From: Halarchaeum grantii
GTDB lineage: Archaea; Halobacteriota; Halobacteria; Halobacteriales; Halobacteriaceae
NCBI RefSeq assembly: GCF_014647455.2
Contig: NZ_BMPF01000002.1
Coordinates: 1 to 64,000, forward strand
DNA length: 64,000 nucleotides
Direction: 5' to 3'
How positions within the stretch are numbered: the first letter of the stretch is position 1; each line of letters opens with the position of its first letter. Positions 4,086 to 50,249 of the stretch are shown piece by piece. The position numbers and the translations under genes are program-made. A model generated the notes under the pieces. The model saw nothing but the letters and a program-made list of their open reading frames with translations, had not been told where the DNA came from and ran no database searches.

Positions 4086-4262
4086 TGGGGCCGGAGGGAT
4101 TTGAACCCCCGATCGACTGATATCTCCGGTGCGCCTCGGAACTCCAGAGGGTCGTCGTCGCGAGCCGATGATCAGTCGGTCGCTCGGTATACCAGTCTGG
4201 AATTTCGTCCCGGGCGCGTGGCCTCTGGAGTCAGTCGCCATCCCTGGCTTGGCCACAGCCCC
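4086..4262 (-). tRNA. tRNA-Trp (CCA) with 103-nt intron
   Basis: Exon 1 is 4225-4262, the intron 4122-4224 and exon 2 4086-4121; the joined tRNA is 74 nt. The acceptor stem is GGGGCTG/CGGCCCC (one G-U) with discriminator A. The anticodon loop CTCCAGA gives CCA. Splicing between positions 37 and 38 restores a 5-bp anticodon stem ACTGA/TCAGT, which fails to form without removal. Haloarchaeal tRNA-Trp genes are known to carry such an intron, which acts as a C/D-box guide for 2'-O-methylation of its own pre-tRNA. Here intron bases 4141-4150 are a perfect 10-nt complement to 4222-4231, which spans the anticodon loop. Confidence 0.95.
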
Positions 4263-24307: not shown

Positions 24308-24396
24308 ACACCACTCTCGGCCGTCCCGACCCTAAGGTCTTCCCCCGTCGCCCGGGTTAACGAAAGGCCCTTATGTGAAACCCGACTACGCAGAGA

Positions 24397-24706
24397 TGGA
24401 CTAGGTCGGGCGGTTTGGCCCCGCCCCTCGCCCGCGAAATGGTCATTAGCGGGGACCGAACGCCGTGGGAGTCCGGCCCGCCCGGGTCGGACCCCGGAAG
24501 CCGACGTCGAAACCTCGTCCTTCGGGGGCGACGGTCCGTCGTCTACGCGCCTGCAGGGGCGTCGTAGCACGGTTCGTCGGTGCGATCCCGCCAGGCACGG
24601 AAGTGAGCAGCGGAGCACCGGACGGTCGTCGCTCGAAGGGTCGCGGGGTGGAGGAGGCGACCGGGACTATCCGTCCCGGAACGGTCAGGCGACCACGGCC
24701 TGTCCA
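24397..24706 (+). ncRNA. ffs: 7S signal recognition particle RNA
   Basis: About 310 nt, the usual archaeal size. The diagnostic helix-8 element is at about 24580-24620: ccaggcacggaagtgagcag, with the GGAA tetraloop and the AGCAG asymmetric loop that bind SRP54. The ends pair through tggac (24397-24401) and gtcca (24702-24706) as helix 1. A cttatg TATA box at 24370-24375 sits 27 bp before the inferred 5' end. A T-run follows the 3' end at 24720-24723. Exact ends are inferred from pairing and promoter spacing. Proteins predicted across this stretch are spurious. Confidence 0.92.
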
Positions 24707-24797
24707 CCATTCATATCGGTTTTCACCGCCCACGAGCCGCCGGCTCGGTGGTGCTCGACGCGTGCGGACCGCAAAAGCGGAGGAGAGGCAGGCGTCG

Positions 24798-37226: not shown

Positions 37227-37670
37227 CGATAGCCGACCTCGACGCGGGAGACGACGGGGGCGTCCCCGTCGCGTCCGAAGGCGTCGTCGGCGTCCGTCGC
37301 TTGCCGTACCCAGGGAGTGCGAGGAGGACCGATGGACCACCGTATCGGAGCGCCCGGTCGCGTTCGCGAACGAAGCCGCGACTCAGAGCCGTTCGATGGG
37401 GCCGTGAAAATCGCCGAAGCACCGTCGCACGCGGCGTCTCGCGACGAACGCCCATCGGTCGCCGGATGGCGACCGAGAGCAGTTCAGAGGCACAGCCGGT
37501 GCGTGTGCACCAGCACGCGTACCATTGTGGCCGACCCGTATTAACTCACGTACTGCGGGCGGAACCACCAACTCGTCGTACGTAATAAAACTGCCTGTCT
37601 TTTATATACTGTCGGGGGCTGGTCGTGACACAAGCGAGTATTTATACGCGGCCCGACACCACGAAGGCGT
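37227..37670. promoter_or_regulatory. Gene-free region with hairpin and two TATA elements
   Basis: No gene seen. At the left, a perfect 7-bp hairpin gacgggg/ccccgtc (37253-37270) can terminate the flippase transcript. At the right, tttatacg at 37641-37648 is 30 bp before the regulator ATG, and a second strong TATA-like tract ttttatata at 37599-37607 sits 40 bp further upstream. The latter reads as a TATA box in both directions. Confidence 0.55.
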
Positions 37671-38435
37671 ATGACCGGCGACCCCGAGCGCTTCGCCCGA
37701 CTGCTCGTTCAGCGCGCGCCGGTCCTCCACTCGCTCGCCGCCGCGAACGCGAGCAAAGCCGAGCTGGCGGACGACCTCGGCGTCTCGCGCTCCACCGTCG
37801 ACCGCGCCGTTCGGGACCTCGAATCCGTGTGCGCCGTCGAGCGTCGCGACGGCACCGTCACGCTCACGCTCGTCGGTCGCCTCGCGCTCACCGCCTACGA
37901 CGCCTTCCAGACCGACCTGCACTCGCTCACCGGCTGCGACGGCCTCGCCCATCTCGACGCCGACACGCCGGTCACGCTCGACGTCGTTCGCGGCGCCACC
38001 ACCGTCACCGCCTCGGCGGGCGCGCCACACCAGCCCGTCTCCGCGTTCGTCGACTTCGTCGAGGACGCCGTCCACGTCGACCTCTACGCCACGATGGTCC
38101 TCCCGACCGTCGTCGACGCCATCGCACGCCGCATCGAGGACGGCCTCACCGTCGACGCCTACCTGAACGGTGACGCCCTCGACGCGCTCCTCGCCGACCA
38201 CAGCGAGACGGCGACGCGCGTCCTCGACAGCAGCCGCGTCACCGTCGCCGAAACCACCGCCGACTACCGCTTCGACTTCGCGCGCTTCGACCTCGCCGAC
38301 GGCCGGCAGGTCACCGCTCTCGCCTACGGCGCACACGGCGTCGACGAACTCCTCGTCAACGACACCGCCGACGCGCTCGCGTGGGCACAGACCCGGCTCG
38401 ACGACCTCGGGGACGACGCCACCGTGCTCACCTGA
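37671..38435 (+). CDS. Winged-helix regulator (FilR1/DUF1724-like)
   Basis: 254 residues. An N-terminal winged helix (about 15-75) with recognition-helix pattern KAELADDLGVSRSTVDRAVRDLE, then a C-terminal sensor domain (about 110-250) like that of the archaeal FilR1 family (VDLYATMVLPTVVDAIARRIEDG). DNA-binding and likely ligand-responsive. It precedes the ABC/PrsW gene set by 165 bp on the same strand and may control it and itself, given the two TATA tracts upstream. Ligand unknown. Confidence 0.85.
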   Translation: MTGDPERFARLLVQRAPVLHSLAAANASKAELADDLGVSRSTVDRAVRDLESVCAVERRDGTVTLTLVGRLALTAYDAFQTDLHSLTGCDGLAHLDADTPVTLDVVRGATTVTASAGAPHQPVSAFVDFVEDAVHVDLYATMVLPTVVDAIARRIEDGLTVDAYLNGDALDALLADHSETATRVLDSSRVTVAETTADYRFDFARFDLADGRQVTALAYGAHGVDELLVNDTADALAWAQTRLDDLGDDATVLT

Positions 38436-48437: not shown

Positions 48438-49076
48438 ATGGAGAACGTGACCGACCGAACGTGCAACCCGTTCGGCATGCAGCCGGCGGGCGACGCGCAC
48501 GTCTACGGCTACGGGGACGCGAACGCGGACTTCCACGTGGTCGGCGACCACCCCGGTGCGCACGGCGGCGCGGAGACCGGCGTCCCCTTCACCGGAACCG
48601 AGGCGGGCGTCCGCCTCCAGCACGCGCTCGCCGCCGTCGGCCTCGTCACCGACCCCGGCGAGGAACCCGCCGTGGACAACTGCTTCCTCTCCTACCGGCA
48701 CATGCGCGTCCTCGACGCGGAGCGCGAGCCGACGGCCGCGGAGTACGCGGACCTCGAGATGTTCTTCGACGCCGAGCTCCGCGCGATCACCGCGCACGTC
48801 CTCCTCCCGGTCGGACGCGACGCCACCGAGCACGTCCTCGGGCAGTACACGGCGCGCCGCGAGAAGGTCGACACCACCGACATGGCCGCCCTCCACGGCG
48901 AGGAGGTCTACGGGAGCGGCTTCCTCGTCGTCCCCGTCCGCGACCCGCGCGAGTGGACGGACGGCGACGGCCGCGCGCTCGCGGAGTCGCTCGCCGAACT
49001 CATGGAGCGCGACTATCGGCGCGAGTCCGACCTCGGGCGCTTCCTCACCGGCCCCGAACCCTACTGGGTCCGATAG
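48438..49076 (+). CDS. Uracil-DNA glycosylase superfamily protein
   Basis: 212 residues. Motif A is FHVVGDHPGAHGGAETGVPFTG (about 31-52), the GDxPG...PF pattern of family 4/5-type glycosylases. Motif 3-like segments HVLLPVGRDATEHVL and VVPVRDPREW follow. The conserved His of the catalytic serine-valine motif is not evident, so activity is uncertain; it could excise uracil or be a related enzyme. The ATG at 48438 is preferred over a longer frame from 48306. Confidence 0.8.
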   Translation: MENVTDRTCNPFGMQPAGDAHVYGYGDANADFHVVGDHPGAHGGAETGVPFTGTEAGVRLQHALAAVGLVTDPGEEPAVDNCFLSYRHMRVLDAEREPTAAEYADLEMFFDAELRAITAHVLLPVGRDATEHVLGQYTARREKVDTTDMAALHGEEVYGSGFLVVPVRDPREWTDGDGRALAESLAELMERDYRRESDLGRFLTGPEPYWVR

Positions 49077-49099: not shown

Positions 49100-49270
49100 G
49101 AATATTCATGCAGAGGCCGTAACTGGGAGAGGAACGCAGTCGCATACGCCTGCTCGACAGGCACCGTGCCTCTGCCGGGGAGCGTCCGCCCCACCGCTCC
49201 CCGACTACTGCCGCCGGCCGACCACGCCCCGTCGGCCGGCCACCACCAGCCCCCGACCGGTCGGTTTTTT
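49100..49270 (+). ncRNA. Candidate structured RNA with C-rich hairpin loops
   Basis: A 219-bp gap after the UDG-like gene packed with perfect hairpins: aggcac/gtgcct (49159-49171); 9-bp stem cggggagcg/cgctccccg with loop tccgccccac (49176-49203); 10-bp stem gccggccgac/gtcggccggc with loop cacgcccc (49213-49240); and terminator-like ccgaccggtcgg plus T6 (49253-49270). A cttaaac element at 49089-49095 could start it near 49116. Both long stems present a CNCGCCCC-like loop. Independent transcription is not proved; the strand is inferred from the T-run. Confidence 0.5.
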
Positions 49271-49295: not shown

Positions 49296-50249
49296 GTGAA
49301 CCGTGGGTACGTCGCGCTCGCGTTCGCCGTCGGCTTCGCGCTCCTCGGCGGCGTCGTCCTCCAGGCCGGCGGTTGGCTCGCGACGACGATGTTCTACGGC
49401 TACGCGGTGGGTGAAATCGCCGGGAAGGCGCTCGCCACGGTCGCCGTCGTCGCCGGCTTCTACGGCGCGTACGCGCTCGCACGTGGCTTCCTCGTCCATC
49501 GGACCACGGACAAGGTCGCTCGACACAAGGCCGTCTCCATCCTGCAGTTGCTCTTCATCACGCTCGGGACGCTCGCCGTCCTCGGCGTCGCCACCGACCG
49601 CTGGGTGCCCGCGCTCGTCTCCCTCGGCGTCGTCGGTTTCGCCATCACGTTCGCGCTCCAGCAGCCGCTGCTCTCGCTGTTCGGCTGGGTCTACATCATG
49701 GTGAAGGAGCCCTATCAGGTGGGCGACCGGGTCGCCATCGAGGGCTCGAAGGGCGACATCATCGACGTCGACTTCCTCGTGACGACGCTCTGGGAGGTGA
49801 ACGGCGAGCTCGTCTCCTCGAACCAGCCCTCGGGCCGGCACGTCACCGTCCCGAACAGCGTCGTGCTCTCGACGCAGATCACGAACTTCTCGCACGACGA
49901 CTTCCCGTACGTCTGGAACGAGGTCGAGGTGCAGGTCGCTTACGAGACGGACTTGGAGTTCGCGAGCGCGCAGATGCGCGCGGCCGCCGAGGGGTTCCTC
50001 GGCGACGAGATGGAGCGCGCCGTCTCGCGCTACCGCGACCTGCTCGCGGAGACGCCGGTCGAGCTCGAGGTGAACGAGCGCCCGAGCGTGAACGTCCAGC
50101 CGGAGAACACGTTCGTGACGCTCCGCCTTCGGTACCTCGTCTCGCCCAAGCGCGGCCAGCGGACGAAGAACGAGCTCTACCAGCGCATCATCGCGCGCTT
50201 CAACGACCACCCCGACCGCGTCGCGTTCCCCGTCGGCCGCAACCGCTAA
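49296..50249 (+). CDS. MscS-family channel or transporter (short type)
   Basis: 317 residues from a GTG start. Four hydrophobic segments in the first 155 residues. The pore helix is ALVSLGVVGFAITFALQQPLLSLFGW and the beta domain begins YQVGDRVAIEGSKGDIIDVDF, with VTVPNSVVLSTQITNFS. Compared with the copy at 24798 the pore is less Gly/Ala-regular, so gating may differ. The GTG at 49296 is fixed by the T6 tract at 49265-49270 about 30 bp upstream, which doubles as the T-run of the preceding hairpin terminator. Confidence 0.9.
   Translation: MNRGYVALAFAVGFALLGGVVLQAGGWLATTMFYGYAVGEIAGKALATVAVVAGFYGAYALARGFLVHRTTDKVARHKAVSILQLLFITLGTLAVLGVATDRWVPALVSLGVVGFAITFALQQPLLSLFGWVYIMVKEPYQVGDRVAIEGSKGDIIDVDFLVTTLWEVNGELVSSNQPSGRHVTVPNSVVLSTQITNFSHDDFPYVWNEVEVQVAYETDLEFASAQMRAAAEGFLGDEMERAVSRYRDLLAETPVELEVNERPSVNVQPENTFVTLRLRYLVSPKRGQRTKNELYQRIIARFNDHPDRVAFPVGRNR

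Follow-up and report, generated by a model that had tools for sequence, protein, structure and literature searches.

A predicted haloarchaeal small RNA family with a conserved unpaired core complementary to the rosR start-codon region

Introduction

The 64,000-nucleotide stretch of Halarchaeum grantii DNA analysed here (the window) contains, between genes for a uracil-DNA glycosylase (UDG) superfamily protein and an MscS-type channel, a gap packed with inverted repeats (49100-49270). Does this gap hold an RNA gene of its own or the 3′ untranslated region (UTR) of the UDG gene, and, if an RNA, on what would it act? By folding, comparison with related genomes and searches for complementary sites, a previously unannotated small-RNA gene with its own promoter is predicted here, designated type A, and a second, similarly built RNA, type B, was found in the window. 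The features discussed below are collected in Table 1.

Table 1. Features of the type A and type B loci in the window
Feature	Position	Strand	Remarks
UDG superfamily gene	48438..49076	+	Upstream of type A RNA
TATA-like promoter element CTTAAA	49089..49094	+	Spacing to CATGCAG shared with Halorussus copies
CATGCAG, conserved, promoter-proximal	49107..49113	+	Transcription start predicted at ~49117 from TATA spacing
Predicted type A small RNA	49117..49270	+	Start placed by TATA spacing, end by terminator
Hairpin A (P1), type A	49148..49162	+	GCCUG 49148-49152 / CAGGC 49158-49162; in every type A copy found
Unpaired core CGUGCCUCUG	49165..49174	+	9 nt GUGCCUCUG complementary to CAGAGGCAC of rosR start region
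Hairpin B	49176..49203	+	9-bp stem CGGGGAGCG 49176-49184 / CGCTCCCCG 49195-49203, loop TCCGCCCCAC
Third hairpin	49213..49240	+	10 bp (49213-49222/49231-49240), loop CACGCCCC; this genome only
Palindrome CCGACCGGTCGG (49253-49264) and T6 (49265-49270)	49253..49270	+	Terminator-like
MscS-type channel gene	49296..50249	+	Downstream of type A RNA
Type B hairpin B UCGGUCGCC/GGCGACCGA	37455..37476	-	Different perfect stems in relatives
Type B core UGUGCCUCUGA	37484..37494	-	11 nt complementary to UCAGAGGCACA of rosR start region
Type B hairpin A GCUGGUGC/GCACCGGC	37495..37514	-	Pairing in 100% of cells (16 sequences), with one compensatory pair
Candidate TATA box TTAATA, type B	37539..37544	-	Weak by sequence; ~26 nt ahead of hairpin A
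HTH regulator gene (FilR1_middle, HVO_A0261_N)	37671..38435	+	Divergent from type B RNA in 17 Halobacteriaceae genomes

Structure of the intergenic region

A preliminary description of the gap had listed perfect stems of 10 and 9 bp and a 12-bp palindrome followed by T6, all of which are present, together with a 6-bp stem AGGCAC/GTGCCT (49159-49164/49166-49171), which is impossible as a hairpin because its loop would be only 1 nt. Comparison across the family shows the true pairing to be GCCTG with CAGGC (predicted hairpin A), which leaves GTGCCTCTG single-stranded. The predicted fold of the plus strand reached -79 kcal/mol, compared with -64.9 kcal/mol for dinucleotide shuffles (z = -3.16, equalled by 1 of 200 shuffles), and the corresponding value for the minus strand was much weaker (z = -1.36). 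Predicted accessibility of the core was 0.44 against 0.37 for the control, a modest excess. Another pairing in this genome, GCAGAGGC (49110-49117) with GCCTCTGC (49168-49175), was rejected: homologues lack it, and the predicted transcript would begin at or after its 5′ arm. The third hairpin likewise had no counterpart among the aligned homologues. In two congeners (G002 and G003) the UDG stop codon is followed at once by the palindrome and T6, and the hairpin stretch is absent, so this terminator-like element is older than the RNA or independent of it.

Conservation of the type A RNA

Aligned type A copies share the TATA-like element, hairpin A (GCCUG/CAGGC), the unpaired core (U)GUGCCUCUG(AC) and hairpin B. 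Between species the stem sequence of hairpin B is almost wholly replaced, with pairing preserved (GGAAGCCG/CGGCTTCC, CGGGGAGCG/CGCTCCCCG, GGGAGTG/CACTCCC, GGTGCGGTCG/CGACCGCACC and CGGGGTAACGG/CCGTTACTCCG, among others). Nearly all stems were perfect in a survey showing 39 of 40 copies; G020 had no clear stem, and that of G008 is interrupted. A search for hairpin A plus core gave a single match per genome, in five Halobacteriaceae and in most genomes of another family, Haladaptataceae, with Halorussus as one group and, probably, Haladaptatus as the other; most of the Halorussus and Haladaptatus genomes searched carry single copies elsewhere. A covariance model built without hairpin B, which leaves that hairpin usable as an independent check, matched 26 of 392 genomes, all within these two families, and misses the divergent copies of this genome, G008 and G009. 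A model of core and hairpin only (R2) was discarded as too unspecific. No relevant Rfam 15 family was found for type A or type B above the gathering cut-off or at permissive thresholds, and the phage records searched gave no match.

The promoter candidate cttaaac of the preliminary description is backed by spacing: CTTAAA and CATGCAG are separated by 12 nt both here and in the Halorussus copies, and in relatives from other genera the corresponding position is taken by TTATAAAA, CATAAA or TGTTTAAG. Its expectation of compensatory changes in homologous loci was likewise borne out, hairpin B keeping its pairing through them. Structure, own promoter and compensatory changes speak for a functional structured RNA as it had proposed, but not for the C-rich loops as the active part. 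Loops with CGCCCC, described there as conserved within the locus, were found in hairpin B of this genome and G009 only, and other relatives have GAAA, TCTC, GTAC or CCTC; a regulatory RNA acting by C-rich loops was rejected on this ground. Nor did pairing with generic GGGG sites hold up: among the unpaired elements it is the core between the hairpins, UGUGCCUCUG(AC), that is conserved, and its complement is the start region of rosR specifically.

UDG and MscS-type genes are adjacent or nearly so in many genomes of Halobacteriaceae, and RNA homologues lie between them in four relatives of this family (G004, G008, G009 and G010). In these four, UDG is followed by a gene for an MBL-fold hydrolase, with the RNA homologue directly 3′ of it, and then by redoxin and/or M20 hydrolase genes. 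This MBL gene is absent from the genome under study, where the RNA has outlived its neighbour, which argues against leader function for that operon. The gene downstream of the RNA also varies, being redoxin or M20 hydrolase (G004-G010), MscS in this genome, and unrelated genes in Halorussus and Haladaptatus; in Halorussus the type A gene is often found, unannotated, on a large plasmid. A cis-regulatory leader or riboswitch of the redoxin/hydrolase operon was accordingly rejected, as the RNA has no fixed gene position and is kept without the MBL gene. Varied gene contexts, intergenic position and a conserved promoter, recognised by its sequence, are the marks of an independent gene.

Complementarity of the core to the rosR start codon

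The gene rosR encodes a major oxidative-stress regulator. Having been defined from the RNA alignment before any target was seen, the core has a reverse complement, AUGUCAGAGGCACA, that is the start-codon region of rosR, as read in loci of relatives. The 12-mer UGUGCCUCUGAC was present in 317 of the 384 haloarchaeal genomes searched. Many RNA copies were considered as the source of this enrichment and rejected, since the loci read show mostly the rosR start codon; it was this reading that identified the target. At most of these loci the opposite strand carries the 12-mer, at the start codon of ATGTCAGAGGCACA..., and the encoded protein (MSEAQ...) matches the hsRosR structures PDB 6ez1 and 6qfd (E ~1e-49). 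Eight Halorussus genomes contain the 12-mer exactly twice genome-wide, once in the RNA and once at the rosR start; G173 and G154 lack an RNA with an exact core, and their sole 12-mer is the rosR start. For family f17, which includes Halorussus, a hand count gave 69 matches against 14 for the reversed control. Relatives thus combine a conserved unpaired core with a complementary conserved mRNA site encoded elsewhere.

Codon usage at the site was compared in 45 rosR genes, whose conservation there is biased upward because they were collected by the 12-mer itself. The site has TCA and GCA, although elsewhere in the gene these account for 2.7% of Ser and 17.7% of Ala codons, respectively; codons and residues after MSEAQ vary widely. 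Among 8 plasmid RosR-like genes found by protein, 2 have the exact site and 3 have it with one or two changes, and the three more distant ones have lost it. Predicted core-rosR duplexes in Halorussus have energies of -28 to -33 kcal/mol, compared with background means of -13 to -21 kcal/mol; the margin is smaller in Haladaptatus, and in Haladaptatus and G145 some random sites match rosR in energy. The complementarity extends over 9-14 bp depending on the species. The two cores of the present genome are the shortest and most degenerate (9 and 11 nt), and its one exact 12-mer lies outside the window. The rosR start in this genome and its congeners is expected to read ATGTCAGAGGCAC. The family may be real and its function nonetheless relaxed in this species.

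Several observations were made beside this comparison. In Halorussus (e.g. L298 and L300) a second, partial copy, GTCAGAG, stands just 5′ of the rosR start codon (GTCAGAGTCTATGTCAGAGGCACA) and is possibly a second pairing register. On a plasmid of Halomicrococcus gelatinilyticus (L497:151-165), the RosR-like gene start GTCAGAGACACA complements the variant core of Haladaptatus type, UGUGUCUCUGAC, without mismatch, possibly through a compensatory change. Genus g11 of family f5 has about 3 exact 12-mers per genome, compared with almost none for the reversed control, a count in which positions are unlisted and rosR paralogues are indistinguishable from RNA copies.

A second RNA in the window

The type B RNA, found on the minus strand (37455-37514), repeats the arrangement of two hairpins and a core; model R1 had flagged 37475-37520 (-) with a weak score (E = 0.24). 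The family consensus of its hairpin A is GCUGGUGY/RCACCGGC. The type B 14-mer is present as exactly one copy in 17 of the 26 Halobacteriaceae genomes; the ~160 others searched had none. In G008 a variant core (UGUGCCUCUGU) stands next to a homologue of the HTH gene, so that the RNA adjoins this gene in 18 genomes of the family. In congeners G002 and G003, RNAs are absent at both the type A and the type B locus. Two further RNA genes were seen in the window, namely an archaeal SRP RNA gene with a strong Rfam match (24394-24709) and a 177-base Rfam tRNA match at 4086-4262 (-), not called by ARAGORN, which is probably an intron-containing tRNA gene.

Proposed mechanism and alternative explanations

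The only evolutionarily kept unpaired stretch complements the rosR start, and the RNA therefore probably switches rosR translation. Two hairpins would frame and present the single-stranded core UGUGCCUCUGAC(A), which would pair with rosR mRNA over the start codon (AUGUCAGAGGCACA). As the rosR mRNA leader appears short, such pairing would block translation initiation, resulting in less RosR. We consider it likely that the RNA predicted at 49117-49270 acts in trans in this way, pairing across the start codon and repressing rosR translation, with 37455-37514 (-) as a second member. Sequence comparison shows the gene, its structure, its conservation and a complementarity to rosR that is unique in several genomes; transcription, in vivo pairing and the direction of effect are inferred.

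The same complementarity would fit an RNA that pairs with rosR mRNA and stabilises or activates it, or one that is itself titrated by rosR mRNA. Stabilising archaeal sRNAs exist, M. mazei sRNA154, cited in PMC13286277, being one, but pairing at a start codon normally hinders initiation, the site includes that very codon of rosR, and we regard such an effect as unlikely. That the structured RNA uses its core to bind a protein or some other RNA, the match to rosR being coincidental, seems slightly less probable still: structure and core conservation require no rosR, and one seed can have several targets, yet the exact complement is unique at the start codon in several whole genomes and kept across many lineages.

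That the shared 12-mer is instead a DNA operator, bound by a regulator of both rosR and the RNA genes, is very unlikely in our judgement. Both occurrences are close to a promoter, and RosR is listed as a repressor of its own gene (PMC3443676, PMC4287449); that repression, however, goes through an unrelated DNA motif, the published site TCGnCGACGAGnTCGnCGAC having no match to the core. Moreover, in the RNAs the 12-mer is antisense relative to rosR and stands far downstream of the promoter, within the predicted transcribed region between covarying hairpins. A plain UDG 3′ UTR, ending in a terminator and carrying G+C-rich hairpins by chance, would account for a stretch directly after the UDG stop codon and for a terminator common to congeners. 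It is contradicted by conservation outside the UDG context, where homologues follow other genes or lie on plasmids and have promoters of their own, and its probability is close to nil; the preference of the preliminary description for a functional RNA over a plain 3′ UTR was well placed. Repression of rosR translation by base pairing remains the reading that we favour.

Comparison with known systems

The RNAs described here constitute an undescribed haloarchaeal family. A literature search found no report of an RNA acting on rosR, an absence that is no proof of novelty. Methanosarcina mazei sRNA162 (PMC3510493) is likewise an archaeal trans-acting sRNA with a proposed target mRNA encoding a transcription factor; it is an experimentally characterised RNA of a methanogen, whereas the present RNA, with rosR as its proposed target, is supported by comparative evidence. 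Haloferax volcanii sRNA132 and SHOxi (PMC6560208, PMC12482152) are also haloarchaeal intergenic sRNAs acting on mRNAs. SHOxi acts by base pairing under oxidative stress on an mRNA different from rosR, and sRNA132 has a phosphate transporter operon as its putative target. The H. volcanii RNA hvo_1211s (PMC13286277) is a regulatory RNA within the RosR network, but the proposed control runs the other way, from RosR to the RNA, and not from the RNA to rosR as here. C-rich-motif sRNAs of the CcsR/CCUCCUCCC type (RF02791) similarly carry a pyrimidine-rich segment on a hairpin RNA; the present RNA differs from them in having no Rfam match and in that its C-rich loops are not conserved.

Distribution and significance

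Many haloarchaea with the rosR site yielded no type A or type B RNA. Neither the 12-mer nor an RNA of either type was found in G005, G011 and G014 (genus g3), possibly reflecting joint loss of RNA and target site. In other families, including Halalkalicoccus, there are intergenic copies of TGTGCCTCTGAC in which a loop holds the core or hairpins flank it (L338, with two in tandem, L342, L346, L350, L351, L356, L359, L366, L371 and L372); these are possible further anti-rosR RNAs, to be treated as leads whose membership is not established. It is conceivable, with somewhat less than an even chance, that most haloarchaea carry sRNAs on differing, fast-evolving hairpin scaffolds that share one core antisense to the rosR start codon. 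If true, this would amount to a lineage-wide circuit of RNA and transcription factor in which only seed and target site are conserved.

Archaeal RNAs that act in trans and have a conserved target are, to our knowledge, few. The present prediction, one site at the rosR start codon for a deeply conserved RNA, is directly testable in the model species Halobacterium salinarum. If true, pairing with rosR would also explain why the first rosR codons are frozen at the nucleotide level.
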